From Pseudochrobactrum saccharolyticum (GTDB taxonomy: Bacteria > Pseudomonadota > Alphaproteobacteria > Rhizobiales > Rhizobiaceae), in the NCBI RefSeq assembly GCF_008801715.1, contig NZ_VZPG01000002.1, positions 186,001 to 250,000 of the forward strand: DNA of 64,000 nucleotides, read 5' to 3'. Position numbers and translations under genes: made by a program. Positions 2,566 through 52,274 of the stretch are shown here, piece after piece. Position 1 is the stretch's first letter. Each line of letters starts with the position of its first letter. A model generated the notes under the pieces. That model had not been told where the DNA came from. It was given only the letters and a program-made list of their open reading frames with translations, and searched no databases.

Positions 2566-2574
2566 GATAAGTGC

Positions 2575-4110: not shown

Positions 4111-4883
4111 CAGTTGCACAGCGTCCTGTTGCTTTGATTACCGGCGGCCGTCGCGGTATTGGCTTCGCGACTGCCAAAGCGCTTGCGCAGTCGGGATTTG
4201 ATATAGCGGTCAGCGGAATAGAGGCCGTTCAGGCTGACGATCCTGTACTCGCGGAACTCGGTGCACTGGGTGCCGATGCGCATTACTGGCAGTCGGATTT
4301 GTCTGATATCAGTCAGCATCAAACAACGGTTGATGCTATATTTCAGCGCTTTGGCACAATTGATTGCCTTGTGAATAATGCGGGTATCGGCTCTGTTATT
4401 CGCGGGGATTTTCTGGAGTTGCGTCCGAAAAATTTTGACGCGGTTATGAATGTTAATCTGCGGGGTACAATCTTTTTTACGCAGGCTGTTGTCCGCTCAA
4501 TGTTGGCGGTGAAGCACAATCAGAAACCCCGTACAATCATTAATATTACCTCGGTTTCCGCATCTGCCAGTTCACCCGAGCGGTTGGATTATTGTGTCAG
4601 CAAAGCAGGTCTGTCGGCTTTCAGTCAAGGGCTGGCATTACGGCTTGCTCAGAGTGGTATTGCGGTTTTTGAGGTTCGTCCCGGCATTATCCGCACAGAT
4701 ATGACTGCAAAAGTCTCAGAAAAATATGATGCGCTGATTGCTGAAGGACTGGTGCCTGCCGGACGTTGGGGTGAGGCGGCGGATATCGGAGCGATTTGTG
4801 CCGGTCTTGCTTCCGGTGCCATGCATTTTGCCACGGGAACAGTGATTGCTGCGGATGGCGGCCTGTCAATTGCGCGCTTCTGA
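4107..4883 (+). CDS. Short-chain dehydrogenase/reductase (SDR), 3-oxoacyl-ACP reductase-like
   Basis: Classical SDR of 258 residues. The NAD(P)-binding glycine motif is ITGGRRGIGFA near the N terminus, followed by NNAG and the catalytic Ser...Tyr-x3-Lys (NITSVS; YCVSK). The start codon overlaps the stop of the GMC gene (ATGA), which indicates translational coupling. FabG-like annotations are common for such proteins, but the position inside a sugar uptake and oxidation operon suggests it reduces or oxidises a carbonyl intermediate of that pathway rather than acting in fatty acid synthesis. The substrate is inferred only from context. Confidence 0.88.
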   Translation: MTVAQRPVALITGGRRGIGFATAKALAQSGFDIAVSGIEAVQADDPVLAELGALGADAHYWQSDLSDISQHQTTVDAIFQRFGTIDCLVNNAGIGSVIRGDFLELRPKNFDAVMNVNLRGTIFFTQAVVRSMLAVKHNQKPRTIINITSVSASASSPERLDYCVSKAGLSAFSQGLALRLAQSGIAVFEVRPGIIRTDMTAKVSEKYDALIAEGLVPAGRWGEAADIGAICAGLASGAMHFATGTVIAADGGLSIARF

Positions 4884-10639: not shown

Positions 10640-11005
10640 GTCCTGCGCGACTGTGACTTCGACATGTTCCGGATGAATGTCCACGCGTATCAGCGGTGTG
10701 CCGTTTTCAATAATTGCACGGTCGCGGTCGGAGAGTGAGCCTTCGGAAAGCATTTTCTCCAGCTTTGCGCGGTTCGCCTTGTCGTTGAAGAACACGTCGG
10801 ATTCATCTTCCGGATCCATTTTGCCAAAAATGTAAAAATTGGCGCGATCCTGACGGATAATCGTGGCTGCGGAGTTCAGCGCCACGCCTGATGAGTTGTA
10901 ATGATCCTGTTTGCTCAAGCGTGCCCAGTATGTATCTATGGGCTGTGCCCAGACATTCGTCGTCATACCCAGTACCGAAACAGACAAAAACACCACTCGC
11001 AACAT
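10637..11005 (-). CDS. Small exported protein of unknown function
   Basis: Protein of 122 residues that I do not recognise. The ATG at 11005 is chosen because GGGGGGAGC lies directly upstream and the protein then begins with a signal peptide (LRVVFLSVSVLGM, cleavage near NVWA-QP). The mature part is charged and Asp/Glu-rich and has no cysteines, which suggests a soluble periplasmic protein. Longer in-frame starts exist but lack a signal peptide at the N terminus. It converges on the GNAT gene and stops inside a shared palindrome. Confidence 0.65.
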   Translation of the reverse strand: MLRVVFLSVSVLGMTTNVWAQPIDTYWARLSKQDHYNSSGVALNSAATIIRQDRANFYIFGKMDPEDESDVFFNDKANRAKLEKMLSEGSLSDRDRAIIENGTPLIRVDIHPEHVEVTVAQD

Positions 11006-11195
11006 ATTGCTCCCCCCATAGTCCTGTTGCTTTCTATAATCCATTTTCGGCAGAAATGGAAATATTGTCACTGGCAGGTGGTTTTTGTTTTAAGTGAAAA
11101 TAATTTGTTATTTTGAAAGATAAAAACACCAACATAAGCTGCCGGTGCATAAAATATTGCTCGTTTATCGACAGATCATAAAGAGAGATACTTCT

Positions 11196-11468
11196 ATGAA
11201 ATTCAAAACACTGGTTGCTGCATCCTTTTCTGCACTGCTCATCTCTGCTGCTGCAAGTTCCGCAGCATCTGCCTGCACGCAGGAAGAACTGACCAAGAAG
11301 GCAACAGACTTAACTGCTGCAATTCAGGAAGTGTTGACGAAAGATCCGAGCCGCGCTCAGGAAATTATGACAAAGTCGCAGGAAATGCAGACCAAGTATC
11401 AGGGTACCACTGATATGAATGAAGCCTGCAAGGCTTATGACGAGCTGCTGGAAACCATCAAGAAATAA
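11196..11468 (+). CDS. Small exported helical protein of unknown function
   Basis: Protein of 90 residues with a signal peptide (FKTLVAASFSALLISAAASS, probable cleavage ASA-CT). The mature 60 or so residues are helical, Lys/Glu/Gln-rich, with two cysteines (in ACTQEE and EACKAY) that could form one disulphide. The ATG at 11196 has AAGAGAG ten bases upstream; a longer frame would add residues with no leader character. No known domain was recognised. It is transcribed alone. Confidence 0.7.
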   Translation: MKFKTLVAASFSALLISAAASSAASACTQEELTKKATDLTAAIQEVLTKDPSRAQEIMTKSQEMQTKYQGTTDMNEACKAYDELLETIKK

Positions 11469-11573
11469 TATCCGGTCTTTGTTCCGGAGCAGGCGGCGGT
11501 TCCCGTTTTTGCTTTTCCGGCGATTAGGTCCCGACGGAAAAGCGCGCTCCGGAATAATGATTGAGATAAAAAA

Positions 11574-11603
11574 AACGGGGAAGACCGCAAGGTCTTCCCC
11601 GTT
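11574..11603. terminator. Bidirectional intrinsic terminator
   Basis: A 13-bp perfect stem (11574-11586 with 11591-11603) around GCAA has a long A run to its left and CTCTTTT to its right. It can end both the small exported gene on the plus strand and the MFS gene on the minus strand, more strongly the latter. Confidence 0.9.
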
Positions 11604-11619
11604 CTCTTTTCTAGGCCGA

Positions 11620-12825
11620 TTATGCGGCCATTTTTTTCGGCAGGCGCGGCAGCAATATTGTCAGCACGCCCAGCAGTGGCAGGAATGAACACAGCCAATA
11701 GACATATTCAATGCCGTGGCTGTCGGCGAAATCGCCGAGCAATGCAGCCCCGATACCGCCCGCACCGAATGCGAAGCCGAAGAACACACCGGCGATCATG
11801 CCGACACGTCCCGGTACCAGCTCCTGTGCAAAGACCACAATTGCGGAGAATGCCGAGGAGAAGATAATACCGATGACAACGGCCAGAACGCATGTCCAGA
11901 ACAGGTTGGCGTAAGGCATCATCAGGGCGAAAGGAATAACGCCGAGGATCGAGAACCAGATGACGAAACGGGCGCCCATTCTGTCGCCGATCGGGCCACC
12001 GATGAAAACACCGGCTGCCGATGCACCGAGGAACAGGAACAGCATTAGCTGCGCATTTTGTACCGTGACATCGAATTTCTCGATGACGAAGAAGGTAAAA
12101 TAGCTGGAAATACTGGCCATATACACATTCTTGGTCGTGGTGAGCAGCACCAGAACCAGAATGGCGAACATCACGCGTCCCTGCGGCAGCGGCAGAGTGC
12201 GGTCTGCAGCAGGTTTGTTTTTGCTCTGACGCTGTTTTTCAGCATACCAGCGGCTGACGCGGGTGAGCGCGATAAAGCCGAAAACCGCAATGATTGCCAG
12301 CCATGCAACGCTCGACTGACCGTTTGGCAGAATGATGAAAGCGGCAAGCAGAGGGCCGAGTGCGGAGCCGAAATTGCCGCCGACCTGAAACAGGGACTGG
12401 GCAAAGCCGTGGCGACCACCGGAGGCAATACGCGCCACACGTGAAGCCTCTGGATGAAAGATCGCCGATCCCAGACCAATCAGGCTGGAGCCGATCAGCA
12501 GCACCGTATAGCTGTCGGCATTGGCGAGCAGCAAAAGGCCGGTGAATGTGCTGACACTGGAGAGCGGCAGAGAATAAGGCATCGGCCAGCGGTCGGTGAT
12601 AATGCCGATGACCGGTTGCAGAAGGGAGGCCGTGATCTGGAAGGTCATGGTCAGGAAGCCGATCTGACGGAAATCCAGATTATAATTGGTTTTAATCAAC
12701 GGATAGATCGCTGACAGCAGCGATTGCATAATATCGTTGAACATGTGGCAGAAGCTGACAACCACAATCAGTGAAACAGTTGTGGCTTCAGTTATTTTTG
12801 GTGACTGGCTGGTCACGGTCGTCAT
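11620..12825 (-). CDS. fsr: MFS transporter, fosmidomycin resistance (Fsr) family
   Basis: Drug-efflux major facilitator of 401 residues with about 12 membrane segments. The N-terminal pattern SFCHMFNDIMQSLLSAIYPLIK and the following YNLDFRQIGFLTMTFQ are characteristic of the Fsr clade, as is LGSAIFHPEASRVAR in the first half. It probably exports fosmidomycin-like or other small toxic compounds by proton antiport; the real substrate in this organism is unknown. A GGAGC Shine-Dalgarno precedes the ATG. An AraC regulator is divergently transcribed 256 bases away and is the likely local regulator. Confidence 0.9.
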   Translation of the reverse strand: MTTVTSQSPKITEATTVSLIVVVSFCHMFNDIMQSLLSAIYPLIKTNYNLDFRQIGFLTMTFQITASLLQPVIGIITDRWPMPYSLPLSSVSTFTGLLLLANADSYTVLLIGSSLIGLGSAIFHPEASRVARIASGGRHGFAQSLFQVGGNFGSALGPLLAAFIILPNGQSSVAWLAIIAVFGFIALTRVSRWYAEKQRQSKNKPAADRTLPLPQGRVMFAILVLVLLTTTKNVYMASISSYFTFFVIEKFDVTVQNAQLMLFLFLGASAAGVFIGGPIGDRMGARFVIWFSILGVIPFALMMPYANLFWTCVLAVVIGIIFSSAFSAIVVFAQELVPGRVGMIAGVFFGFAFGAGGIGAALLGDFADSHGIEYVYWLCSFLPLLGVLTILLPRLPKKMAA

Positions 12826-15846: not shown

Positions 15847-16296
15847 ATGTATAAGCATATTTTGATTGCTACGGACGGATCTGAGCTTGCACAAAAAGGT
15901 CTGGAACAGGGGCTGCAACTGGCCTCTAAACTTGGAAGCAAAGTGACTATTCTGACTGTGACCGAGCCGTTTCCGATGATGGCAACCGCCAGCAGCGCAG
16001 GCTGGATTGCCAGCCCGAAAGATATCGAAATCTATAATGAAAATCAGGCGCGACAGGCGCAGGATATTCTCAAAGCGGCTGGTGAGGCGGCTACGAAAGC
16101 TGGGATTACTGCTACGCTGAAACATATTGATGAGCGCTGGCCTGCCGAGGCGATTATCGATTTCAGCCAGCACAGCGATGTTGATCTGATTGTGATGACA
16201 TCCCATGGCCGCCGCGGTATCGGCCGCTTATTGCTGGGCAGCCAGACCAGTGAAGTGCTGACACATACCAAAACGGCTATATTAGTTGTGCGCTAA
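15847..16296 (+). CDS. Universal stress protein, UspA family
   Basis: Single-domain UspA protein of 149 residues. It starts with the strand MYKHILIATDGSELA, and the ATP-binding signature is present at the C terminus (MTSHGRRGIGRLLLGSQTSEVL, in which the G-x2-G-x9-GS pattern is kept). It should therefore bind ATP, unlike the UspA/E. coli subgroup. It is cytoplasmic and probably contributes to survival under nutrient or oxidative stress. The gene is monocistronic, bounded by a strong terminator, and divergent from another stress-type gene. Confidence 0.93.
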   Translation: MYKHILIATDGSELAQKGLEQGLQLASKLGSKVTILTVTEPFPMMATASSAGWIASPKDIEIYNENQARQAQDILKAAGEAATKAGITATLKHIDERWPAEAIIDFSQHSDVDLIVMTSHGRRGIGRLLLGSQTSEVLTHTKTAILVVR

Positions 16297-16324
16297 ACGG
16301 CGACCTCTTAGCAACAGGATTTGA

Positions 16325-16356
16325 AAACGGCCGCAGATATAAGTCTGCGGCCGTTT
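16325..16356. terminator. Bidirectional intrinsic terminator
   Basis: A 13-bp perfect GC-rich stem (16325-16337 with 16344-16356) with A residues left and T residues right lies between the converging uspA-like and peptide-binding-protein genes and can serve both. Confidence 0.88.
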
Positions 16357-16363
16357 CTGTTGG

Positions 16364-18016
16364 TTATTCTTTTGAGGCTTTCAGCACATAATTGGTATCC
16401 GGTGAAATGATAAAATCTTTCACCTTGTTGGACACAACCGCCACTTCATTCAGCTGATAAATCATGGTGAACGGGCTGGTGTCGCGGAACTCTTTCTGAA
16501 GATCCAGATATTGCTGTGCGCGCTTGTCAGCGTCTTTTTCCATGACAGCGGCCAGCGTTTTCTGGGTCAGTTCAGGGATTTCCCATGAATTGCGCCATGC
16601 ACTGGTTTTTGAAACCGCATTGTCGCTATTGTCCAGATTGGTCACGAATGTATCGGCATTGGTATGCGGATCCCAGTAATCGATGCCCCACTGGCCGATA
16701 TAAATATCATGCTTACGTGCGCGATATTTGGTGAGTGTCTGCTTGCCGTCGCCCGGAATGATTTCCAGTTTGATATTGGCTTTGGCAAAAGTCTGCTGAA
16801 TGGATTCTGCAATACCGGTGACCGGCTGTGTGTTGCGTACATCCATGGTAATGGTGAAACCGTCTTTCAGACCGGCTTTTTCCAGCAGTTCCTTGGCTTT
16901 TTCAACATTAAGGCTGAACGGGTTTTCGTCCGTTGAACCAAGCATACCGGCGGGCAGGAAATTCTGGTGGATCGTGCCGATACCCTTAATCAGGGTGGAC
17001 TGAATAGCGCTGTAATCCACCAGATATTTTACAGCCTGACGAACCTCCGGTTTGGATAATGTCTCGTTCTGCTGGTTGAGGCTGAAATAATAGATGGTGC
17101 CTTTCGGCGCGCTGGCGGTGTGGAAGCGCTCATCTTTGGAGATGGCTTCAAGATCACCCGGTTCGAGATTACGGGCAATGTCGATATCACCGGCATCCAG
17201 CATAATACGCTGCGACGCGCTTTCTTTCACATAGCGATAGATAATGCGCTTGAGCGGCGGTTTCTCACCATCATAAGACTCATTGCGCTCCATCATAATG
17301 ATTTCATTCGGACGCCAGTCTTTAATTGCATAAGCGCCGGAACCTGCATAATTACGCTTCAGCCATTCATGGCCGAAATCATTATCTGCTTTGGAATCTG
17401 CAGTCGGTGTGACCGGCTTGGCATGTTCTTTGAGCAGCTTGCTGTCAACAACAGAGCCGACTGTGGCAGTCAGGCAGTTATAGACAAAGCTTGGTGCAAA
17501 GGCTTTTTCCGAGGTGAAAATCAGCGTGTCATCATCTTTGGCGAAGACCTTTTCATCCACATTGTCTTTGGTCAGACCGAACTGGCTGAGAATGAAAACA
17601 GGACTCTGATCGAGCTTCACCGCGCGTTGCAGCGAAAAAGCAGCATCATGTGCGGTAATCGGATTGCCGGAGGCAAATTTCTGACCTTTACGGATTTTAA
17701 AGGTAAAAGTCTTGCCGTCTTCGGCAACTTCCCAGCTCTCGGCAATATCAGCGACCAGTTTGGACGGGTCTTTATAGTCTGTGCGCAGCAGGCGGCCATA
17801 GCTGTTGGCCAGAATTTCTGCTGTGGTAATTTCAAAGGATTCCGCCGGATCCAGCGAAATCACATCATCTGTCGCCATAGCGATCACCAGCGTATCCGCC
17901 GGTGTGGCAGCATTGGCTGCGCTCATCAATACCGAGCCTGTTAAAGCTGTGCTGAATGCCAGTGCCAGTGCGAGCTTGTTCAGCTTGTGTTTTTTGACTG
18001 TTGTCATCAGTGTCAT
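16364..18016 (-). CDS. ABC transporter substrate-binding protein, family 5 (DppA/OppA-like), orphan
   Basis: Periplasmic binding protein of 550 residues for peptides, opines or related solutes. A signal peptide (LALALAFSTALTGSVLMSAANA) precedes the mature N terminus, and the family 5 signature appears in TTAEILANSYGRLLRTD and in SWEVAEDGKTFTFKIRKGQKFASGNPIT (quoted in parts: SWEVAEDGKTF; GQKFASG). The ATG at 18016 has GAGGGGA eight bases upstream; a second ATG three codons later is possible. No permease or ATPase genes are adjacent, so it must either dock on a transporter encoded elsewhere or serve as an orphan sensor. It is transcribed alone. Confidence 0.9.
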   Translation of the reverse strand: MTLMTTVKKHKLNKLALALAFSTALTGSVLMSAANAATPADTLVIAMATDDVISLDPAESFEITTAEILANSYGRLLRTDYKDPSKLVADIAESWEVAEDGKTFTFKIRKGQKFASGNPITAHDAAFSLQRAVKLDQSPVFILSQFGLTKDNVDEKVFAKDDDTLIFTSEKAFAPSFVYNCLTATVGSVVDSKLLKEHAKPVTPTADSKADNDFGHEWLKRNYAGSGAYAIKDWRPNEIIMMERNESYDGEKPPLKRIIYRYVKESASQRIMLDAGDIDIARNLEPGDLEAISKDERFHTASAPKGTIYYFSLNQQNETLSKPEVRQAVKYLVDYSAIQSTLIKGIGTIHQNFLPAGMLGSTDENPFSLNVEKAKELLEKAGLKDGFTITMDVRNTQPVTGIAESIQQTFAKANIKLEIIPGDGKQTLTKYRARKHDIYIGQWGIDYWDPHTNADTFVTNLDNSDNAVSKTSAWRNSWEIPELTQKTLAAVMEKDADKRAQQYLDLQKEFRDTSPFTMIYQLNEVAVVSNKVKDFIISPDTNYVLKASKE

Positions 18017-18143
18017 GCTGTAGTTCCCCTCATTCACGCGGCCGTGTTTTTGGTTTTGGCCGGCTCGGTCAGGAGCGTAACGCAACAATCTGAAAGATCA
18101 AACGAATTCTGAATAATTTTATTAGTCGTGAGGGTAAAATAAA

Positions 18144-18169
18144 CCCCGCCGGTGTGGTCACCGGCGGGG
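18144..18169 (-). terminator. Intrinsic terminator of aldehyde dehydrogenase gene
   Basis: An 11-bp GC-rich stem (18144-18154 with 18159-18169, loop TGGT) is followed in the minus direction by a T-rich stretch. It lies 27 bases beyond the stop at 18196. Confidence 0.85.
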
Positions 18170-18195
18170 GCGTAATGTCTAGCAATAAAATAATG

Positions 18196-19647
18196 TCAGA
18201 TAACCAGATGGGTCACAAATTTTGTGGTCAGATAGGCATTGATAGCTTCTGAGCCGCCTTCTGTGCCATAACCGGAATCCTTGATGCCGCCGAACGGGAC
18301 TTCCGGCAGTGCGAGGCCGAGATGGTTGATTGTTGTCATGCCAGCCTCAATGCGCATGCCCAGTTCGCGTGCATTTTCAGCTGAACGGGTAAAGGCATAG
18401 GACGCCAAACCAAATGGCAGGCGGTTGGCTTCATCAATCACTTCATCCAGTGTTTTGAAGGAAGAGAAGACAGCCACAGGGCCGAAAGGCTCTTCATTCA
18501 TGATACGTGCGGTTTTAGGCGCGTCGGCCAGCACGGTCGGTTCAAAGAAATTACCGACATTGCCGATACGGCGGCCGCCGGTCATCAGACGCGCGCCATT
18601 GTCCACGGCATCCTGAATCAGGGATTCAAGGGCAGGGATACGGCGTTCATTGGCCAGCGGTCCCATCTGCACACCTTCGTCAAAACCATTACCGACTTTG
18701 ATGGCTTTGGCTTTTTCAGTGAAGGATTCAACGACCTGCTCATAGACATTTTCCTGCACGAGGAAGCGGGTCGGCGAAACGCAAACCTGACCGGCATTGC
18801 GGAATTTGGACATAGCCAGTGTTTTAACTGCGCCTTCCACATCGGCATCATCAAAGATGATGGCCGGTGCATGGCCGCCGAGTTCCATGGTCGACAGTTT
18901 CATATGCTGGCTGGCAAGACCGGCCAGCATTTTGCCGATGGGTGTGGAGCCGGTGAACGAGATTTTGCGGATTACCGGATGCGGGATCAGATATTCGGAG
19001 ATTTCTGACGGTACGCCATAAACCAGATTGACCACACCGGCCGGAATACCGGCATCAACAAAAACGCGGATCAGTTCGGCAGGTGAGGCCGGTGTTTCTT
19101 CCGGTGCTTTGACAATGATCGAGCAACCGGCGGCAATGGCAGCGGAGAGCTTGCGCACCACTTGATTGATCGGGAAATTCCATGGTGTGAAGGCCGCTAC
19201 AGGGCCGACCGGCAGTTTGAATGCCATCTGCGATACACCGACAGCGCGTGCCGGAATGATCTGGCCATAGGTGCGGCGTGCTTCTTCAGCAAACCAGTCG
19301 ATAATATCTGCGCCGGCAAGGATCTCACCTTTGGCCTCAGCAACCGGCTTGCCCTGCTCAAGGGTCAGGATCGGCGCAATGGCATCTGCCCGCTCACGCA
19401 GCAAATCTGCCGCGCGGCGCATGAATTTGGAACGGTCGAATGGCGAGCTTGCGCTCCAGATTTTAAAACCCTTGGCAGCGGCATCCAGTGCAGCGTCGAG
19501 ATCAACCTTCTCAGCATGGGCAACCTTGCCGATCACTTCGCCGGTGGCCGGATTGAACACATCAATTGTACGCCCGCTTTGCGCATTGCGCCATTCGCCG
19601 TTGATCAAAAGCTGGGTATCTGGATAGCGCGGTGCAGTCTGAGACAT
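18196..19647 (-). CDS. NAD(P)-dependent aldehyde dehydrogenase (succinate-semialdehyde dehydrogenase-like)
   Basis: Aldehyde dehydrogenase of 483 residues, the usual length. It shows the cofactor motif FTPWNFPIN, the glycine motif [10 protein letters not shown], the general-base motif [13 protein letters not shown] and the catalytic Cys in [13 protein letters not shown]. It belongs to the GabD-like cluster (NAD-dependent succinate-semialdehyde or related short aldehydes). The ATG at 19647 has GGAGGA immediately upstream; longer frames add an unlikely leader. It is a single gene, with no gabT or other pathway partner next to it, so the substrate remains open. Confidence 0.88.
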
Positions 19648-42966: not shown

Positions 42967-43815
42967 TTATGGCCGGTTTCTGAAGCGCAGACCTTCCAGT
43001 TCTTTAATACGCGCGGCACTGTCTTGTTCCAGCTGTATGGTCATTTCCCGAATGATGCTTTCCGCCAGTACGAACAACGCGGCGGAAGAATCCCATGCCG
43101 AGGGAACGCCGGTGCGCCCCGCAATCACATGACGGGCAAAACGGGCAATCGGCGACAGCCACTGATCCGTTATCAGCACAATATCAACGCCGCGGCTTTT
43201 GGCGGTTTCAGCCAGATGCAGCAGACTGTCCTGATAGCGGCGGATGTCGAAGACAATCAATATATCCTTTTTGCCCATATCCAGCAGCCTGTCACGCCAT
43301 GCGCTTTCCTGCCCCGACAGGTGGAAAACATGCGGGCGGATCACGGTCATATGCGCAGCCATATATTGCGCAATGGGATCGGTAAAACGCCCGCCGATCA
43401 GATAAATATTGCCGCGTGCACAGGCCAGCGCAGTGACGATATCGCTTAACTGTTTCTCACTGATATGGCGGAAAGTTTCGCGGATATTTTCAAGACTGTG
43501 TTCGACTGCCGGATAATCGGTGTCCGGCTGGCTTTGCCGGTTTTCATTGCGGTTATGGGGAGATTGCAGCTGGGCGGCCAGTTCATCCTGCAAACGCGCC
43601 TGAAAATCGGAATAATTCTGAAAACCGAGCCGGTTGATAAACCGCAGAATAGTCGGGGAACTCACTCCTGCCTGAGCAGAAAATTCGGCAACGGTTTTAA
43701 GGCCAAGCATCGGATAACTGGCAATCAGCGTTTGTGCGGCATTGCGCTCACCCGGAGGCATTGTGTCAATCCGCTCGGTTATCAGTTCGGCGATACTGGT
43801 GAAATTGTTCATCAT
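42967..43815 (-). CDS. RpiR/MurR-family transcriptional regulator
   Basis: Regulator of 282 residues with an N-terminal HTH_6 domain (about 1-80: FSAQAGVSSPTILRFINRLGF, quoted in part as SSPTILRFINRLGF) and a C-terminal SIS sugar-isomerase-like domain (about 125-260), which normally senses a phosphorylated sugar or a small acid. The start is one of two adjacent ATGs with AGGTG upstream. It is divergent from the amidohydrolase-TRAP-ligase cluster, and the shared 180-base region holds a palindrome that is a likely operator. It is the presumptive controller of that cluster. Confidence 0.9.
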   Translation of the reverse strand: MMNNFTSIAELITERIDTMPPGERNAAQTLIASYPMLGLKTVAEFSAQAGVSSPTILRFINRLGFQNYSDFQARLQDELAAQLQSPHNRNENRQSQPDTDYPAVEHSLENIRETFRHISEKQLSDIVTALACARGNIYLIGGRFTDPIAQYMAAHMTVIRPHVFHLSGQESAWRDRLLDMGKKDILIVFDIRRYQDSLLHLAETAKSRGVDIVLITDQWLSPIARFARHVIAGRTGVPSAWDSSAALFVLAESIIREMTIQLEQDSAARIKELEGLRFRNRP

Positions 43816-43941
43816 AAAACACCTGTTTGCATCAGTGGACTGAATGGCCCGCTTTTTGATTCAACCCATTTAAAAATACTATTTGACAAAAGATAATAAT
43901 GCGTATGAGATGATACACAATAGTGCGAAATAAAAAATAAC

Positions 43942-43955
43942 GTAACATAAGTTAC
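43942..43955. promoter_or_regulatory. Candidate operator between rpiR-like gene and amidohydrolase
   Basis: GTAACATAAGTTAC is a 5-bp inverted repeat with a 4-base centre, about 40 bases upstream of the amidohydrolase start and 130 bases upstream of the regulator start. A TTGACA at 43883-43888 lies upstream of it on the same strand. Position and symmetry fit an RpiR-type dimer site. Confidence 0.4.
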
Positions 43956-43995
43956 ATGTGTAAATGATAAAATTTACTCGCATGAGGGGGGAAGA

Positions 43996-44802
43996 ATGGC
44001 GGAAATTCGCGGTTCTCACGGCAATGATATGCATACCCGTTATTCTGATGCCGGTGGCGATATACCGGCTGTCACTGTTCTCAATGAGCAGGGTGAAAGC
44101 CCGTATCTGCTGATCTGTGAACATGCCACGAATTTTATGCCGGAGAGATTTGCACGCCTCGGATTGAGCGAGGCTGATATGTCCGCCCATATTGCATGGG
44201 ATCCGGGTGCGGCTGAGGTCGCGCGGCGTATGAGTAAAGCGCTGGATGCTACGCTTGTTGAGGCCGGTCTTTCCCGCTTGCTGATTGATTGTAACCGGCC
44301 GCTTTCCGCGCCGGATCTTATTCCTGAGATCAGTGAGTTTACGGTGATACCAGGTAATCACAATCTGTCAGAGGCAGAGCGGCAGGAGCGTATATCCCTG
44401 TCGCACAAGCCTTTTCACGATAAAATCGAAGAAGTTATTGAGGCGCGCAAAAAACGCGGACAGGAAAGCCGCGTTATAACCATTCACTCCTATACGCCGG
44501 TTTATAAAGGTGTCGGGCGGCCATGGGAAATCGGGATCATTCATGATGCTGATGACAGGCTGGGTGCGCGTATGATCGCGGGTTTGCGCAAAGACGGGGA
44601 AAGCTCAGGCATCAATGTTGGCGTGAACCAGCCTTATTCGCCGGATGACCGTGTTTATTACACCGTGGAATGTCATGCGCGTAAACGGGGTGATCTCTGC
44701 GCGATGGTGGAAATCCGCAATAATGAAATTGCTGACGAGAAAGGGCATGCGCTTTGGGCTGCCCGTCTGTCGTCAATCTTACAGGAAATTGAGATTACAT
44801 AA
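43996..44802 (+). CDS. N-formylglutamate amidohydrolase-family hydrolase
   Basis: Hydrolase of 268 residues in the N-formylglutamate amidohydrolase family (HutG type), which cleaves an amide to free glutamate. Conserved blocks visible are ICEHATNFMP (metal-binding Glu/His) near residue 38, DCNRPLSAPDLIPE near 95, TIHSYTPVYKG near 160 and YYTVECHARK near 215. No histidine-degradation genes are nearby; it starts a run with a TRAP transporter and a glutamine-synthetase-like ligase. Hydrolysis of a gamma-glutamyl or N-acyl glutamate made in that pathway is therefore more plausible than histidine breakdown. The ATG has GAGGGGGGA just upstream. Substrate is inferred. Confidence 0.83.
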   Translation: MAEIRGSHGNDMHTRYSDAGGDIPAVTVLNEQGESPYLLICEHATNFMPERFARLGLSEADMSAHIAWDPGAAEVARRMSKALDATLVEAGLSRLLIDCNRPLSAPDLIPEISEFTVIPGNHNLSEAERQERISLSHKPFHDKIEEVIEARKKRGQESRVITIHSYTPVYKGVGRPWEIGIIHDADDRLGARMIAGLRKDGESSGINVGVNQPYSPDDRVYYTVECHARKRGDLCAMVEIRNNEIADEKGHALWAARLSSILQEIEIT

Positions 44803-44931
44803 GGAGTGACGACCTTAACCGCATTCTGTTGAGGAGCAGGCGGGGTTCAAGGGAAACAGGTAACTGGTGAAATACAGGCAAAAGAGCCGGAAAACCGGTC
44901 ATAAAACGCCTGAAGCAACGGGAACAAAAAA

Positions 44932-45492
44932 GTGCCGAAAATACTCAGACTCTTCGTAAAATATGTCGATGCGCTGAATTATCGGGTCGGTCGCTGTGCG
45001 ATGTATCTTATCTTTTTGATGGCAGCCTGCCTGCTTTACTCCACCTTTTCACGGGTTGTGCTGGGCGCGCCGGTGAACTGGGTGCTGGAAATGTCCCAGT
45101 TCATTCTCTCGGCCTATTATCTGCTGGGCGGTGCCTATGCGATGCAGCAGGGCGCTCATGTGCGGATGGATTTGTTTTATGACCGTTTTGCGCCGAAGAA
45201 GAAGGCGCTGACAGATGTCATTACAATTCTCTGCGTGATCTTCTATCTCGTTGTGATGTTCGCGGGCGGGCTTTCCAGCACCAATTACGCCTATGTCTAT
45301 AATCAGCGCAATTACACGGCATGGGCTCCGGTGCTGTGGCCGATCAAAACGCTGATGACGCTCGGTGTTTTCCTGCTGCTGCTGCAGTGCATCTCCAATC
45401 TTATCAAAGATTTCGCGATCTGGCGCGGCACGCCGATCAAACCTGCTGCTTACATACCTGATGCCGCACCGCAGGAAGGGCAAACTGTATGA
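44932..45492 (+). CDS. TRAP transporter small permease (DctQ family)
   Basis: Small four-helix membrane subunit of a tripartite ATP-independent periplasmic transporter, 186 residues. Helices lie at about 22-45, 50-72, 92-114 and 136-160, with the DctQ pattern NWVLEMSQFILSAYYLLGGAYAMQQGAHVRMDLFYDR (part: GAHVRMDLFYDR). The start is GTG at 44932 with GGAAC upstream; the first in-frame ATG lies inside the first helix. It overlaps the large permease gene by four bases (ATGA). Confidence 0.92.
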   Translation: MPKILRLFVKYVDALNYRVGRCAMYLIFLMAACLLYSTFSRVVLGAPVNWVLEMSQFILSAYYLLGGAYAMQQGAHVRMDLFYDRFAPKKKALTDVITILCVIFYLVVMFAGGLSSTNYAYVYNQRNYTAWAPVLWPIKTLMTLGVFLLLLQCISNLIKDFAIWRGTPIKPAAYIPDAAPQEGQTV

Positions 45493-46814
45493 GTTCGGAA
45501 TTCATTACTCTTTTCATGTTTGCCACAATGATGGTGCTGCTGATGACAGGGCAGCGCGTATTCGGTGTGATCGGTTTTGTCGGTTCGCTGGCGGCGCTGC
45601 TGCTCTGGGGTAACGGCGCGTTTGAAATGCCGTTCAACGCCACTTTTGCGGTGCTGAACTGGTATCCTCTGATTACCGTGCCGTTCTTTGTGTTTATGGG
45701 CTATATGCTCTCGGAATCCGGCATTGCCAGCAATCTCTACCGCATGTTCCATGTCTGGTTCGGCGGTATTCGCGGCGGTCTGGCACTTGGTACCATCGGG
45801 CTGATGGTTGTGATTTCCTCTATGAACGGCCTGAGTGTGGCCGGTATGGCCATTGGTGCAACGGTGGCACTGCCGGAGCTGCTGAAGCGCGGCTATAACA
45901 AGATTATGGTGACCGGCGTTATTCAGGCGGGCAGCTCGCTGGGTATTCTGATCCCGCCGAGTGTGGTGCTGGTGCTTTATGCGATGATTGCGCGTCAGCC
46001 GGTACTGCAATTATGGCTGGCAGGTATCGGGCCGGGCTTGCTGATGGCCACATTATTTGCAGTCTATATCTATATCCGCTGCCGGATTAATCCTGAGCTC
46101 GGGCCAACATTGCCTAAAGAAGAGCTGGACAGCATTACTTGGGCGGAGAAGTTTTCAACGCTGCGCGCCGGTCTGCTGCCTCTGATTATTTTCGGCACAA
46201 TGATGGGGCTGTTTCTGACCGGTGTTACCAGTCTGGTGGAAAGCTCGGTAGTCGGCGCTTTGCTGGCAACTTTGGCGGCATTGTTCACAGGGCGGATGAC
46301 CAAAGCAGTTTGGGAAACCACAACCCGCAACTCGCTGATGATCTCTTGTATGTTCCTCTGGATCATTCTCGCGGCGCTGTGCTTCTCATCCGTTTATGAT
46401 GGTCTGGGTGCAGTGAAGGCGATTGAAAAACTGCTGATCGGTACATTTGATCTGTCGCCATGGACAATTCTGATCCTGATGCTGCTGTCCTTTGTTGTGC
46501 TTGGCATGTTTCTGGATGACACAGCGATGCTGGTTATCGTGGCGCCGCTCTATATTCCGCTGGTTAAAAGCCTCGGATTCAATGCGATCTGGTTCGGTAT
46601 TCTCTACACGATCACCTGTCAGATTGCCTATATCACCCCGCCTTTCGGCTATAACCTGTTCATGATGCGGGCGCTCGCACCGTCCAGCGTGACCATGGTT
46701 GATATTTATAAATCTATCGTTCCGTTCTTCTTCCTGATGGTGCTGACGGTCATCATTCTGATGATCTTCCCGCAGATCGCTCTGTGGCTGCCAAACTGGT
46801 ATTCGGGACGCTGA
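45489..46814 (+). CDS. TRAP transporter large permease (DctM family)
   Basis: Large 441-residue permease with about 12 membrane segments, which carries solute using the sodium gradient. DctM motifs visible are GQRVFGVIGFVGSL near the N terminus, GSSLGILIPPSVVLVLYA and FLDDTAMLVIVAPLYIPLV near 340. It is translationally coupled to the DctQ-type gene, while the binding-protein gene begins 175 bases later after a hairpin-rich spacer. Together with that protein it should import the substrate of the cluster. Confidence 0.94.
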   Translation: MSSEFITLFMFATMMVLLMTGQRVFGVIGFVGSLAALLLWGNGAFEMPFNATFAVLNWYPLITVPFFVFMGYMLSESGIASNLYRMFHVWFGGIRGGLALGTIGLMVVISSMNGLSVAGMAIGATVALPELLKRGYNKIMVTGVIQAGSSLGILIPPSVVLVLYAMIARQPVLQLWLAGIGPGLLMATLFAVYIYIRCRINPELGPTLPKEELDSITWAEKFSTLRAGLLPLIIFGTMMGLFLTGVTSLVESSVVGALLATLAALFTGRMTKAVWETTTRNSLMISCMFLWIILAALCFSSVYDGLGAVKAIEKLLIGTFDLSPWTILILMLLSFVVLGMFLDDTAMLVIVAPLYIPLVKSLGFNAIWFGILYTITCQIAYITPPFGYNLFMMRALAPSSVTMVDIYKSIVPFFFLMVLTVIILMIFPQIALWLPNWYSGR

Positions 46815-46908
46815 TAAAGTGTGAAGTGCATAACGCAGTTCAAAAAAAGGCAACAAGCCAAAACTGCGGTGAAGGGAACCAAAACTGAATGTGAAGTAGT
46901 TTGTTATC

Positions 46909-46966
46909 GCAGTTTCAAACTGAGAGAATTGGCGAAAAACCGGTTACCACTTTTCTCAGAAACTGC
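46909..46966. repeat. Intra-operon hairpin element with ACCGGTTACCACTTTT module
   Basis: GCAGTTTC plus CTGAGA on the left pair with TCTCAG plus AAACTGC on the right; the loop carries AAAAACCGGTTACCACTTTT, a relative of the repeat module at 25785-25820. It lies in the 175-base spacer between the TRAP permease and binding-protein genes and could stop or process the transcript there. Confidence 0.55.
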
Positions 46967-46989
46967 CCATTGCGACGGGAGACACGCAA

Positions 46990-48060
46990 ATGAGTGACAG
47001 CAAATTTCTGAATAAGCGCGACTTTCTTAAAAAGTCTGCATTGACCACTGTCGGGGCTGTTGGCGCAACTGCACTCGCCACCCCTTATGTGAAAGCACAG
47101 AGCCCGATTAAATGGCGTCTGCAAACCTATGCAGGGCCTGCTCTGGCTGAACACGTCATCAAGCCTTCCATCGATGCTTTTAACAAGGCTGCCAATGGCG
47201 AGATGGTGATTGAGCTTTATACTTCCGATCAGCTGGTGCCGCAGGGCGAATTGTTCCGTGCGGTGCAGGCGGGTACCATTGATGCGGCGCAGTCTGATGA
47301 TGACTCCATGGCATCACCAGTGGACGTGTCGGTGTTCGGGGCGTATTTCCCGTTCGCTTCACGTTACAGCCTTGATGTGCCGGTACTGTTCAACTGGTAC
47401 GGCCTGAATGAAATCTGGGAAGAAGCCTATAAGGAAATTCCGGGTGTCACATGGCTCAGTGCCGGTTCATGGGATCCGTGTAACTTCGCAACCACCAAGC
47501 CGATCCGCTCGCTGGAAGACCTGAAAGGCCTGCGCGTCTTTACCTTCCCGACAGGTGGTCAGTTCCTTACCCGTTTTGGTGTGGTGCCTGTGACCCTGCC
47601 TTGGGAAGATATTGAAGTGGCCATTCAGACCGGTGAACTTGACGGCGTGTGCTGGTCGGGCGCGACCGAAGTTTATACAGTCGGCTGGGCTGATATTAAT
47701 AAATATTATCTCACCAATAATATCAGCGGTGCCTGGGCAGGTTCCTATTTTGCCAATACGGAAAAATGGAATGCCGTGCCTGCGCATTTGCAGCAGCTGT
47801 TTAAACTCAGCATGGACAGCTCCCATTACTACCGCCAGCATTGGTACTGGTGGGGTGAAGCCCATTACCGCACCACCGGCGGCAAGCTTGAGCTGACAAC
47901 TATTCCGGAAGCGGAATGGGGCAAAGTTGAAGATGAGGCCATGAAGTTCTGGGATGAAATTGCGGCCAAGAGCCCGCGCAATGCCAAAGTGGTTGAAATC
48001 CTGAAGAAATATCAGGAAACCATGCGCAAAGCCGGTGCACCATATCGCTACGGAGCATAA
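46990..48060 (+). CDS. TRAP transporter substrate-binding protein (DctP family)
   Basis: Periplasmic binding protein of 356 residues that delivers solute to the TRAP permeases. It starts with NKRDFLKKSALTTVGAVGAT, a Tat-like signal in which the twin arginine is KR, followed by a hydrophobic core and cleavage after VKAQ. The middle of the protein shows the DctP pattern ENLKGLRV-like (LEDLKGLRVFTFPTGG) and the substrate Arg region. GGGAGAC precedes the ATG. It follows the permeases and precedes the ligase. A TRAP substrate is normally an organic acid, but amine-like solutes such as ectoine are also carried. Confidence 0.92.
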   Translation: MSDSKFLNKRDFLKKSALTTVGAVGATALATPYVKAQSPIKWRLQTYAGPALAEHVIKPSIDAFNKAANGEMVIELYTSDQLVPQGELFRAVQAGTIDAAQSDDDSMASPVDVSVFGAYFPFASRYSLDVPVLFNWYGLNEIWEEAYKEIPGVTWLSAGSWDPCNFATTKPIRSLEDLKGLRVFTFPTGGQFLTRFGVVPVTLPWEDIEVAIQTGELDGVCWSGATEVYTVGWADINKYYLTNNISGAWAGSYFANTEKWNAVPAHLQQLFKLSMDSSHYYRQHWYWWGEAHYRTTGGKLELTTIPEAEWGKVEDEAMKFWDEIAAKSPRNAKVVEILKKYQETMRKAGAPYRYGA

Positions 48061-48077
48061 CCAAAATTTACAAAAAC

Positions 48078-48102
48078 TGTCGCCGCCGGAGGGGCGGCGA
48101 CA
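48078..48102 (+). terminator. Stable hairpin after the binding-protein gene, no T run
   Basis: A 10-bp GC-rich stem (48078-48087 with 48093-48102, loop GGAGG) lies 18 bases after the dctP-type stop. Without a T run it is more likely an RNA-stabilising or partial-attenuation hairpin that raises binding-protein output over the downstream enzymes. Confidence 0.6.
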
Positions 48103-48142
48103 CTCCATTCTAATAAAATGCCGATGAAGCACGGAGTTGTAA

Positions 48143-49513
48143 ATGACCGGAAACCTGACTTTTGATGCGCTGAAAAAAGCGGTCGCTAATGATGAGATTG
48201 ATACCGTGCTCGTCTGCCTGACAGATATGCAGGGACGACTGGTTGGCAAGCGTTTCTATGCGCAGTTTTTTGTTGAATCTGCCTATGATGAAACCCATGG
48301 CTGCAGCTATTTGCTGGCCGATGATATCGATATGGAACCGGTTGCCGGATATGAGGCTGCCAGTTGGGATCAGGGCTATGGCGATTTTGTCATCAAGCCG
48401 GATATGTCCACGCTGCGGATTGCGCCATGGCTGGAGAAAACCGCTCTGGTATTATGCGATGTGCTCGACCATCACGATCATTCCGATCTCGCGCACTCAC
48501 CGCGCGCAATGCTGAAGAAACAGCTGGCACGGCTGAAAGAGCGCGGTTACCGCGCCTATTTTGCCTCAGAGCTTGAATTCTATCTCTTTGATGAGACTTA
48601 TAAATCTGCCCGCGATAAATACTGGAAACATATGGATACATCCTCTCCGTATATTCAGGATTATATGATCCATCTGACCAGCAAGGAAGAACCGGTGCTG
48701 CGTGCGATGCGTAATCATCTTGCGAAAGCCGGTATTCCGATTGAGAATTCCAAAGGTGAGGCTGGTTCCGGTCAGCAGGAACTCAATGTGCGCTATGCGG
48801 AAGGGCTGGATATGGCCGACCGCCATGTCATCATGAAAAATGCAATGAAGGAAATTGCCGAGGCGCAGGGCAAATGTATCACCTTCATGGCGAAATATGA
48901 TTATTGCAAAGCTGGCAGTTCCAGCCATGTGCATAATTCCCTGTGGAGTCTGGATGGCAGCAAGTCGCTGTTTTATGATCCGGATGCACCTTACACCATG
49001 TCGCCGCTGATGCGCTCATGGGTGGCCGGACAGCTGAAATATGCCGCCGATTACACCTATTTCCTCGCGCCTTATGTCAATTCTTACAAGCGTTTTCAGG
49101 CGGGCACTTTCGCTCCGACCAAGATCACATGGAGCCGGGATAATCGCACAGCCGGTTTCCGCCTTTGCGGCGAGGGTACCAAAGGTATTCGTATTGAATG
49201 TCGTATCGGCGGTTCTGATCTCAACCCTTATCTGGCTTTTGCGGCACTGATTGCTGCTGGTTTACGCGGTATTGATGAGAAGCTGGAACTGGAGGAGCCG
49301 TTTGTCGGCGATGCCTATGCGGCGGTGAAACTGCAAGAAATTCCATACACCCTGCGCGATGCCATTGAAACGCTGAAGAATTCTGAATTCCTGAAAGAGG
49401 CTTTGGGCGAGAAGGTTCTCAATCACTATGTCCATACGGCTGATTGGGAACAGGTTGAATATGACCGCCGTGTCACTGACTGGGAGCTACATCGTGGTTT
49501 CGAGCGCTATTAA
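48143..49513 (+). CDS. Glutamine synthetase-family ligase (gamma-glutamyl-amine/PuuA-like)
   Basis: ATP-dependent ligase of 456 residues. The N-terminal beta-grasp domain runs to about 110 and the catalytic barrel carries GEAGSGQQELNVRYAEG, KAGSSSHVHNSLWSLDG (ATP and glutamate site) and NRTAGFRLCGEGTKGIRIECR. The Tyr adenylylation loop of true GlnA is absent and the length is that of gamma-glutamylpolyamine or ethanolamine synthetases. It probably joins glutamate to an amine group rather than assimilating ammonia. It follows the TRAP genes and is followed by aldehyde and alcohol dehydrogenases, as expected for a gamma-glutamylation route of amino-alcohol breakdown. The amine substrate is inferred. 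Confidence 0.88.
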   Translation: MTGNLTFDALKKAVANDEIDTVLVCLTDMQGRLVGKRFYAQFFVESAYDETHGCSYLLADDIDMEPVAGYEAASWDQGYGDFVIKPDMSTLRIAPWLEKTALVLCDVLDHHDHSDLAHSPRAMLKKQLARLKERGYRAYFASELEFYLFDETYKSARDKYWKHMDTSSPYIQDYMIHLTSKEEPVLRAMRNHLAKAGIPIENSKGEAGSGQQELNVRYAEGLDMADRHVIMKNAMKEIAEAQGKCITFMAKYDYCKAGSSSHVHNSLWSLDGSKSLFYDPDAPYTMSPLMRSWVAGQLKYAADYTYFLAPYVNSYKRFQAGTFAPTKITWSRDNRTAGFRLCGEGTKGIRIECRIGGSDLNPYLAFAALIAAGLRGIDEKLELEEPFVGDAYAAVKLQEIPYTLRDAIETLKNSEFLKEALGEKVLNHYVHTADWEQVEYDRRVTDWELHRGFERY

Positions 49514-49524
49514 GTGTCTGATCC

Positions 49525-49645
49525 AAAAGACGTCATGCCGGTCTGCAAATAGCAATTTCTCCGCTTCCGGTACTCACGTACTAAAATGTACGCTGTGTTC
49601 CGGTTCTCGAAATCACTATTTTCGCCACAGCCTGCCGCTTTTTGA
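49525..49645 (+). repeat. 120-bp palindromic repeat, copy 2
   Basis: Matches the repeat at 27126-27245 over most of its length and in the same orientation to the preceding stop codon. Inner GTAC arms and outer CAAAAG/CTTTTTG ends keep the pairing despite base changes. It occupies most of the gap between the ligase and aldehyde dehydrogenase genes and may cause partial termination there. Confidence 0.75.
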
Positions 49646-49681
49646 TTCAAACACACAGCAAATTTATAAAGGAATGAAGCC

Positions 49682-51067
49682 ATGAGCGAAGTGGCGAGAC
49701 TGATTTCTCCGATTGACGGTTCTGTTTATGCGGAACGTGCCTGCCTTGATCTGGGGCAGGTGCAAGCCGTTGTCTCTGCTGCCAGACAGGCGCAGGCAGG
49801 TTGGGCAGTACTGAGCATTGCCGAGCGTGCAAAATATTGTTCGGCGGCACTCGCTGCTTTGGCTGCAATGAATGACGAGCTGGTGCCGGAGATCGCCTGG
49901 CAGATGGGGCGGCCGGTACGCTATGGCGGAGAAAATGGCGGCGTGCAGGAGCGCGGCCAATATATGATCAATATTGCGGAAGAGGCGCTCAAACCGCTGG
50001 TGCCGGAAGAGAAAGACGGTTTCCGCCGCTATGTGAAGCATGTGCCGCTTGGTGTGGTGATGGTAATTGCGCCGTGGAACTATCCGTATCTGACAGCGGT
50101 GAATACGATTATTCCGGCGTTGATGGCGGGCAATACGGTTATCCTCAAACACGCCACGCAAACATTACTGGCCGGTGAGCGCTTTGCCAAAGCCTTTGAA
50201 ATTGCCGGTCTGCCGAAAGGTGTTTTCAGTAATGTGGTGCTGGGACATGCAACCACGGAAGCGCTGCTGGCCTCCGGCACAATTGACCATGTGAATTTCA
50301 CCGGTTCAGTTGGCGGCGGGCGTGCGATTGAAAAGGCCGCTGCCGGTACATTTATGAGTATCGGGCTGGAGCTTGGCGGTAAAGACCCTGCCTATGTGCT
50401 GCCGGATGTTAATGTCGAGCATGCAGTTGCCAATCTCGTAGATGGTGCATTTTTCAATTCCGGCCAGTGCTGCTGCGGTATTGAGCGCATCTATGTGCAT
50501 GAGGCGGTCTATGACAAATTCGTTGACGGTTTCGTTGATCTGACCAGCCAATATGTGGTGGGCAATCCGTTGGATGCATCTTCAACTCTGGGGCCGATGG
50601 CACATGCCCGTTTTGCCGATCTGATCCGCGAACAGAAGGCGGAAGCCCTGCGTAAGGGTGCAAAAGCCCATATCAATATGCAGGTCGAGAATGACCGTGC
50701 CGGTTCGCCTTATATCGCGCCGGAAGTGCTGACCAATGTCGATCATCAGATGAGCGTGATGCGCGAAGAAAGCTTCGGGCCGATTGTCGGCATCATGAAA
50801 GTGCGCAGCGATGAAGAAGCTGTTGCGCTGATGAATGACAGCAATTTCGGGCTGACAGCATCACTCTGGACACCGGACACGGATCGTGCGGCTAATATTG
50901 CCGATCAGATTGAAACCGGCACCGTGTTTATGAACCGCTGTGATTATCTCGATCCGGGACTGGTCTGGACCGGTGTTAAAGATACGGGCAAGGGCGCTTC
51001 GCTGTCTTCTATCGGTTACGGCAATCTCACCCGTCCGAAATCCTATCATCTGCGTGAAAAAATCTGA
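49682..51067 (+). CDS. Aldehyde dehydrogenase family protein
   Basis: Aldehyde dehydrogenase of 461 residues. It shows VIAPWNYPYL (about 125), FTGSVGGGRAIE (about 203), ELGGKDPAYVLPD (general-base Glu, about 226) and the catalytic Cys in NSGQCCCGIERIYV (about 260), where three cysteines stand together. It should oxidise the aldehyde made by the adjacent alcohol dehydrogenase to an acid, using NAD(P). AAGGAATG precedes the ATG. It lies 34 bases before the alcohol dehydrogenase gene, so the two are one unit. Confidence 0.9.
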   Translation: MSEVARLISPIDGSVYAERACLDLGQVQAVVSAARQAQAGWAVLSIAERAKYCSAALAALAAMNDELVPEIAWQMGRPVRYGGENGGVQERGQYMINIAEEALKPLVPEEKDGFRRYVKHVPLGVVMVIAPWNYPYLTAVNTIIPALMAGNTVILKHATQTLLAGERFAKAFEIAGLPKGVFSNVVLGHATTEALLASGTIDHVNFTGSVGGGRAIEKAAAGTFMSIGLELGGKDPAYVLPDVNVEHAVANLVDGAFFNSGQCCCGIERIYVHEAVYDKFVDGFVDLTSQYVVGNPLDASSTLGPMAHARFADLIREQKAEALRKGAKAHINMQVENDRAGSPYIAPEVLTNVDHQMSVMREESFGPIVGIMKVRSDEEAVALMNDSNFGLTASLWTPDTDRAANIADQIETGTVFMNRCDYLDPGLVWTGVKDTGKGASLSSIGYGNLTRPKSYHLREKI

Positions 51068-51101
51068 TCTGCCTTTGAATTTTGATGTGAAAGCAAATGC
51101 A

Positions 51102-52274
51102 ATGACAACATTGATCTCAAAATGGAATTTCCCGACCACTGTGCTGTTTGGTGCCGGTCGTATTAAAGAACTGCCTGCAGTGCTGAAAGCTGCCGGTATC
51201 AGCAATCCTCTCTTCGTCACTGATCCGGGACTGGCGAAGCTGCCGGTTGTGGCATCGACTTTGGCGGTGCTGGATGAAGCCGGTGTGAAATACGGCACTT
51301 TTACCGAAGTGAAGCCAAATCCGGTCGAGAGCAATCTGACTGCCGGTGTTAAAGTCTATAATGACGGCAATCATGATGGGGTGATTGCATTCGGCGGTGG
51401 CTCAGCGCTTGATCTTGGCAAGCTGATTGCGTTTCAGGCCAAGCAGACACGTCCGGTCTGGGATTTTGAAGATATCGGCGATTGGTGGACACGTGCAGAT
51501 AGTGCTGTGATTGCCCCGGTGATTGCGGTGCCGACAACAGCCGGTACCGGCTCGGAAGTTGGCCGCGCCGGTGTGCTGACCAATGAAGCCACGCACACCA
51601 AAAAAGTGATTTTCCATCCGAAAATGCTGCCGGTGACGGTGATTGCGGATCCGGAATTATCCGTTGGCATGCCACCATTCATCACCGCAGGCACAGGGCT
51701 GGATGCGCTGGCGCATTGTTTAGAAGCCTATTGCGCACCCGGTTATCACCCGATGGCGGATGGTATTGCGCTGGAAGGTATCCGGCTGGTGTTTGAAAAC
51801 CTGCCGGTCGCCTATGCAAACGGGCGCGATATTACAGCGCGTGCCAATATGATGGCTGCGGCGGCAATGGGCGCAACAGCTTTCCAGAAGGGGCTTGGCG
51901 CTATCCATTCACTGTCGCATCCGATCGGTGCGCTTTATGATACGCATCATGGCATGACCAATGCGGTCTTTATGCCTTATGTGCTGCATCATAACCGTGC
52001 GGCGATTGAAACCCGTATCGGACGGTTGGCTGATTATCTTGGTATTGCAGGTGGCTTTGACGGCTTCGTTGCAGCAGTGATGAAATTGCGCAAAGAGCTG
52101 AATGTGCCGGACAGCCTGCCGGAATTTATCAAAGGTCTGGAAATGGATGATGCTCGCAAGGATATGATTGCGGAAATGGCTATTGTTGATCCGACAGCCG
52201 GTGGCAATCCGGTTGAGCTGACAAAAGAAGGCGCATTGAAGCTGCTTAATCAGGCGCTTAAAGGCACAGCCTGA
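51102..52274 (+). CDS. Iron-containing alcohol dehydrogenase
   Basis: Group III (Fe-dependent) alcohol dehydrogenase of 390 residues. NAD-binding GGGSALDLGKLIAF is near residue 95 and metal ligands are in DALAHCLEAY and in HSLSHPIGALYDTHHGMTNA (three histidines). The ATG at 51102 gives the standard N terminus; the longest frame would overlap the previous gene by 43 codons and is rejected. It converts an alcohol to the aldehyde used by the preceding enzyme and closes the cluster before a terminator. The substrate is inferred. Confidence 0.92.
   Translation: MTTLISKWNFPTTVLFGAGRIKELPAVLKAAGISNPLFVTDPGLAKLPVVASTLAVLDEAGVKYGTFTEVKPNPVESNLTAGVKVYNDGNHDGVIAFGGGSALDLGKLIAFQAKQTRPVWDFEDIGDWWTRADSAVIAPVIAVPTTAGTGSEVGRAGVLTNEATHTKKVIFHPKMLPVTVIADPELSVGMPPFITAGTGLDALAHCLEAYCAPGYHPMADGIALEGIRLVFENLPVAYANGRDITARANMMAAAAMGATAFQKGLGAIHSLSHPIGALYDTHHGMTNAVFMPYVLHHNRAAIETRIGRLADYLGIAGGFDGFVAAVMKLRKELNVPDSLPEFIKGLEMDDARKDMIAEMAIVDPTAGGNPVELTKEGALKLLNQALKGTA

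Follow-up and report, generated by a model that had tools for sequence, protein, structure and literature searches.

Comparison with described pathways

The closest described counterpart of the locus analysed here, an eight-gene set at 42967-52274 of a 64,000-nucleotide stretch of Pseudochrobactrum saccharolyticum DNA (the whole stretch is called the window), is an operon of Phaeobacter sp. MED193. Its genes run in the order RpiR (MED193_10021), GGAH (10026), EtoV (10031), EtoW (10036), EtoX (10041), ETAGA (10046), GAADDH (10051) and GETADH (10056), where GGAH is gamma-glutamylglycine amidohydrolase and ETAGA is ethanolamine gamma-glutamylase (PMC10132767; this and the other articles are cited from excerpts of their text). 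GGAH, EtoX, ETAGA, GAADDH and GETADH were raised in Phaeobacter on phosphorylethanolamine (PMC10132767 Table 2), and EtoX binds ethanolamine with a Kd of 7.9 uM. The same article ties the MED193 genes to a pathway 'demonstrated' in Chromohalobacter salexigens and A. tumefaciens C58, citing Vetting et al. 2015 (doi 10.1021/bi501388y). The glnA4 cluster of Streptomyces coelicolor (SCO1610-1615) resembles the window in combining a gamma-glutamylethanolamide synthetase with alcohol and aldehyde dehydrogenases and with a formylglutamate amidohydrolase-family enzyme already proposed for the deglutamylation step; it differs in that the figure text shows a short-chain dehydrogenase and a 'glutamine amidotransferase' (orf5), and the excerpts mention no TRAP transporter (PMC6529630).

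The gene order in the window corresponds, gene for gene, to that of an Eto-type ethanolamine gamma-glutamylation operon. The same gamma-glutamylation logic is found in the puu (putrescine) and ipu (isopropylamine/alaninol) routes, which act on other substrates and use other deglutamylating enzymes. The MED193 operon (MED193_10021-10056) and the locus have identical genes in identical order and orientation, and are alike in TRAP uptake, gamma-glutamylation, two oxidations, a gamma-glutamylglycine amidohydrolase and RpiR. This comparison was made by gene order and description rather than by sequence, and against the excerpts it disclosed no difference of substance beyond the organism. From gene order and relatives, MED193_10026 (GGAH) is probably a PF05013 protein. 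With respect to the C. salexigens and A. tumefaciens C58 pathway, the DctP protein of the window is strongly related to Csal_0678 (structure entry 4uab, 510.7 bits).

The locus is thus an ordinary member of a pathway that is already known, and its PF05013 last step had likewise been proposed in print. A preliminary description of this DNA had supposed that the use of such an enzyme in deglutamylation was undescribed. That view, and with it the idea of an undescribed cluster, was rejected, since the eight-gene set is in PMC10132767, where the gene at the corresponding place is called gamma-glutamylglycine amidohydrolase and is induced, and the PF05013 step is in PMC6529630. The scheme put forward at the same time, in which an amino alcohol is captured as its gamma-glutamylamide, oxidized twice and deglutamylated, is supported by the MED193 operon and the 4uab match.

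We consider it very likely that the locus is a substrate-inducible ethanolamine gamma-glutamylation operon, covering import, gamma-glutamylation, two oxidations and hydrolysis to glycine and glutamate. Its gene content, gene order, families, conservation and link to an ethanolamine-bound structure are matters of observation. In this organism the individual reactions would run as follows. The TRAP system would import ethanolamine, which the glutamine synthetase-like ligase would couple, with ATP, to the gamma-carboxyl of glutamate. The resulting gamma-glutamylethanolamide would be oxidized, first by the Fe-alcohol dehydrogenase and next by the aldehyde dehydrogenase, to gamma-glutamylglycine, and the PF05013 amidohydrolase would split this product into glycine and glutamate. 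RpiR would govern the gene set from the divergent promoter region. Substrate binding and co-induction are taken from papers on Phaeobacter and would apply here by analogy. Such a route would connect ethanolamine, which arises from phospholipid headgroups, with glycine and glutamate while bypassing the canonical ammonia-lyase.

Gene content of the locus

All eight genes are intact open reading frames, RpiR lying on the minus strand and the remaining seven on the plus strand (Table 1). Families were assigned to the proteins of the window's open reading frames by Pfam matches above curated cut-offs. The picture of an RpiR regulator facing a one-way set of the named genes therefore stands. The range first given for it, 43815-52274, holds the right gene list, but RpiR only touches its start. 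The Fe-alcohol dehydrogenase most likely starts at 51102 rather than at the longer open reading frame start, 50940, because alignments of homologues begin at that Met. Apart from the PF05013 enzyme no amidase is encoded in the operon, as judged from the open reading frame list and the Pfam search.

Table 1. Features of the probable ethanolamine locus in the window
Feature	Position	Strand	Evidence
RpiR-type regulator (HTH_6 + SIS), divergent	42967..43815	-	HTH_6 41.2 bits, SIS 80.3 bits; position as MED193_10021
GTAACATAAGTTAC inverted repeat, candidate operator in RpiR-FGase gap	43942..43955		inferred
PF05013 amidohydrolase, predicted gamma-glutamylglycine amidohydrolase (GGAH)	43996..44802	+	FGase 142.3 bits
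TRAP small permease, DctQ (EtoV position)	44932..45492	+	DctQ 84.3 bits
TRAP large permease, DctM (EtoW position)	45489..46814	+	DctM 210.2 bits
TRAP binding protein, DctP, predicted ethanolamine-binding (EtoX position)	46990..48060	+	DctP 75.0 bits; 4uab 510.7 bits
Glutamine synthetase-family ligase, predicted gamma-glutamylethanolamide synthetase (ETAGA position)	48143..49513	+	Gln-synt_C 348.4 bits
Aldehyde dehydrogenase, predicted gamma-glutamylaminoacetaldehyde dehydrogenase (GAADDH position)	49682..51067	+	Aldedh 390.5 bits; GQCC, ELGGK motifs
Fe-alcohol dehydrogenase, predicted gamma-glutamylethanolamide dehydrogenase (GETADH position)	51102..52274	+	Fe-ADH 163.4 bits, ADH_Fe_C 137.1 bits

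The TRAP binding protein and its substrate

Among solved structures 4uab is the best relative of DctP, and the runner-up reaches only 60.5 bits. This entry is Csal_0678 of C. salexigens with ethanolamine bound and coordinated by platform Glu220 (PMC12410723). The acidic residues closest to that number in the 4uab chain as printed are Glu at 217 and Asp at 218. Construct position 217 is Glu throughout the 51 homologue rows, one of which is the window's own protein, and position 218 is Val in the window; we infer that Glu220 corresponds to construct position 217. With its 4uab score and, under this mapping, a retained acidic platform position, DctP is of the Csal_0678/EtoX binding-protein type. 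Its sequence is decisive for the class of substrate. Ethanolamine, which headed the substrates listed in the preliminary description, is the best supported of them (4uab/Csal_0678, EtoX binding and MED193 induction), and is presumably the amino alcohol used by this organism. The ammonia-lyase route appears to be absent, and the operon would replace it, because EutB found no match in the window's genome.

Ligase and amidohydrolase

The ligase matches 11zs (890 bits) and 5dm3 (566 bits). Its score against the GlnA equivalog model TIGR00653 was 251.7 bits, below the cut-off of 429.15, and that against the gamma-glutamylputrescine synthetase model NF045547 was 202.1 bits, below the cut-off of 650; both identities were rejected on these scores. 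The match to the N-terminal beta-grasp domain, 22.3 bits, is under the cut-off of 33.4. The genome has three genes of the glutamine synthetase family, and the two others outscore the ligase on PF00120 (459.8 and 363.1 against 349.4 bits).

The amidohydrolase scored 21.7 bits against the HutG equivalog model TIGR02017, whose cut-off is 278.75. Four PF05013 genes are carried by the genome, and a different one, on contig 3, is the true HutG (406.5 bits). The operon enzyme was therefore rejected as HutG, and its earlier label 'HutG-family' holds at the level of the superfamily only. Its best and only solved relative is Atu2144 (2odf). We compared 39 operon FGases, the window's own and 38 collected by similarity to it, a choice that biases the shared residues towards the window's protein. 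Eight residues (H43, H65, D98, N100, R101, R132, H164 and E239) are invariant in 39/39 and common to the true HutG, and the catalytic frame therefore looks intact. Five others (W68, N121, R175, Y214 and M237) are equally invariant in the operon enzymes yet different in the true HutG. This pattern fits a catalytic frame held in common with HutG and a changed substrate pocket. Homology, context and published co-induction point to a probable role of the hydrolase in deglutamylation. No direct assay of it was seen in the excerpts read from the open-licence literature, which give no firm word on print at large.

It is conceivable, though we think it rather doubtful, that the PF05013 enzyme is a dedicated gamma-glutamyl-amino-acid hydrolase, a HutG-superfamily function that has been proposed in print and perhaps never assayed, and that it may take a range of gamma-glutamyl amino acids derived from several amino alcohols.

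A tblastn search of plasmids with the amidohydrolase gave 142 matching records, and the plasmid search with DctP gave 17. Four of the latter were examined; three of them, from Ruegeria sp. B32, Paracoccus denitrificans PD1222 and Marinovum algicola, have a gene annotated as N-formylglutamate amidohydrolase ahead of DctQ. The laboratory strain PD1222 has the same operon as the window. Databases list genes of these kinds as glutamine synthetase and N-formylglutamate amidohydrolase, and renaming is possible.

Conservation of the gene set

Within the order, 89 of 297 genomes had DctP matches, at 90 places, and within the family 75 of 151 did; both counts include the window's own genome. Forty regions, from 39 genomes, were hand-picked across genera from the 90 places. 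FGase and ligase were both found in 25, FGase only in one (L065), ligase only in two (L050 and L080) and neither in 12. All eight genes stood in the same arrangement in 21 of the 40. Judged by sequence comparison, the clustering is not due to chance, because the same order recurs where identity has fallen to 32-51% for RpiR and 36-51% for FGase (best segments, L048-L087). Nine loci were found via the amidohydrolase. RpiR, FGase, ligase and aldehyde dehydrogenase were present in 9/9, the Fe-alcohol dehydrogenase in 8/9 (the L006 record stops within the aldehyde dehydrogenase) and the TRAP genes in 6/9.

Where the TRAP genes are missing the transporter may have been swapped. By eye, L011 has a permease-like open reading frame between FGase and ligase (10792-12336), and L012 has ABC-transporter-like open reading frames downstream (16069-18917).

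An EtoX-like subclade of binding proteins was seen in 11 of the 40 regions (L074 and L076-L085) and in L046, a plasmid of Chelatococcus sp. CO-6. At construct positions 96, 156, 176 and 186 these proteins have A, I or V, V and Y where D, F, F and F are otherwise found. A homologue of the L046 FAD-dependent oxidoreductase occurs in 9/11 subclade regions versus 0/29 others, and 9/11 lack both FGase and ligase, the exceptions being L081 (full operon) and L080 (ligase and Fe-alcohol dehydrogenase). Possibly these proteins form a TRAP group that handles a different substrate or belongs to a different route. In L046 (EutB and EutC, at 2515-4687), L079 (EutB and EutC) and L082 (EutB) the TRAP genes have ethanolamine ammonia-lyase genes nearby, a context that supports ethanolamine as the substrate of this transporter group.

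Alternative explanations

Several observations weigh against an ethanolamine gamma-glutamylation operon. The legend to Fig. 5 of PMC10132767 labels the MED193 pathway 'predicted', the C. salexigens pathway is an in silico prediction according to PMC6529630, which is weaker than the 'demonstrated' of PMC10132767, and the word formylglutamate is absent from PMC10132767. The presence of DctP is patchy, since 12 other listed genomes of the family had no match in the order-level search. FGase and ligase do not occur together in 15 of the 40 regions, and 3 of the 9 FGase-bearing loci have the enzymes without this TRAP system.

The same chemistry might serve another or a broader natural amino alcohol, for example alaninol (2-amino-1-propanol) or 3-aminopropanol. 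The best curated model for the Fe-alcohol dehydrogenase is 4-hydroxybutyrate dehydrogenase, reached at 324.2 of the 500 bits required, and a second structure entry, 4xf5, has the binding-protein sequence of 4uab, probably in complex with 2-amino-1-propanol. Set against these are the MED193 operon of the same order, which is induced by phosphorylethanolamine and whose EtoX binds ethanolamine (PMC10132767), and the ammonia-lyase genes near the binding-protein subclade in L046, L079 and L082, and we regard a different or broader substrate as improbable. We think it slightly less probable still that transport and regulation serve ethanolamine while the PF05013 enzyme does another job, such as the clearing of side products, and a different hydrolase frees glutamate. 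The want of a direct assay in the excerpts read would leave room for this, but the operon encodes no other amidase, the gene is co-induced in Phaeobacter as judged by its position (PMC10132767), and the role has been assigned in print (PMC6529630).

An ordinary glutamine synthetase and an ordinary N-formylglutamate deformylase that are neighbours by accident would account for the superfamilies to which both proteins belong. Both proteins nevertheless miss the equivalog cut-offs for GlnA and HutG, the genome has two further glutamine synthetase-family genes with higher PF00120 scores as well as a true HutG, and the grouping is conserved; this explanation is highly implausible.

Regulation and neighbouring genes

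The inverted repeat GTAACATAAGTTAC, in the RpiR-FGase gap (43816-43995), has one match in the window, against 0.03 expected, and a match was found in 3 of 100 shuffles. It is unchanged in six close relatives (L005-L009 and L013). The pattern GTAAC-N4-GTTAC occurs in 7 of the 36 gaps examined, those of the six close relatives and of L052. If GTAACATAAGTTAC is an operator, it would therefore be specific to close relatives. A TTGACA box at 43883-43888 is retained, together with the inverted repeat, in the alignment of close relatives.

The flanking genes LivK, MFS, Dabb and 4HBT are also found in the closest relatives, including Pseudochrobactrum L008 and L013. One record, L007, titled Bacillus subtilis SK6B4, contains this operon, of Brucellaceae type, with 86-99% protein identity and identical flanking genes, and is probably mislabelled or contaminated.

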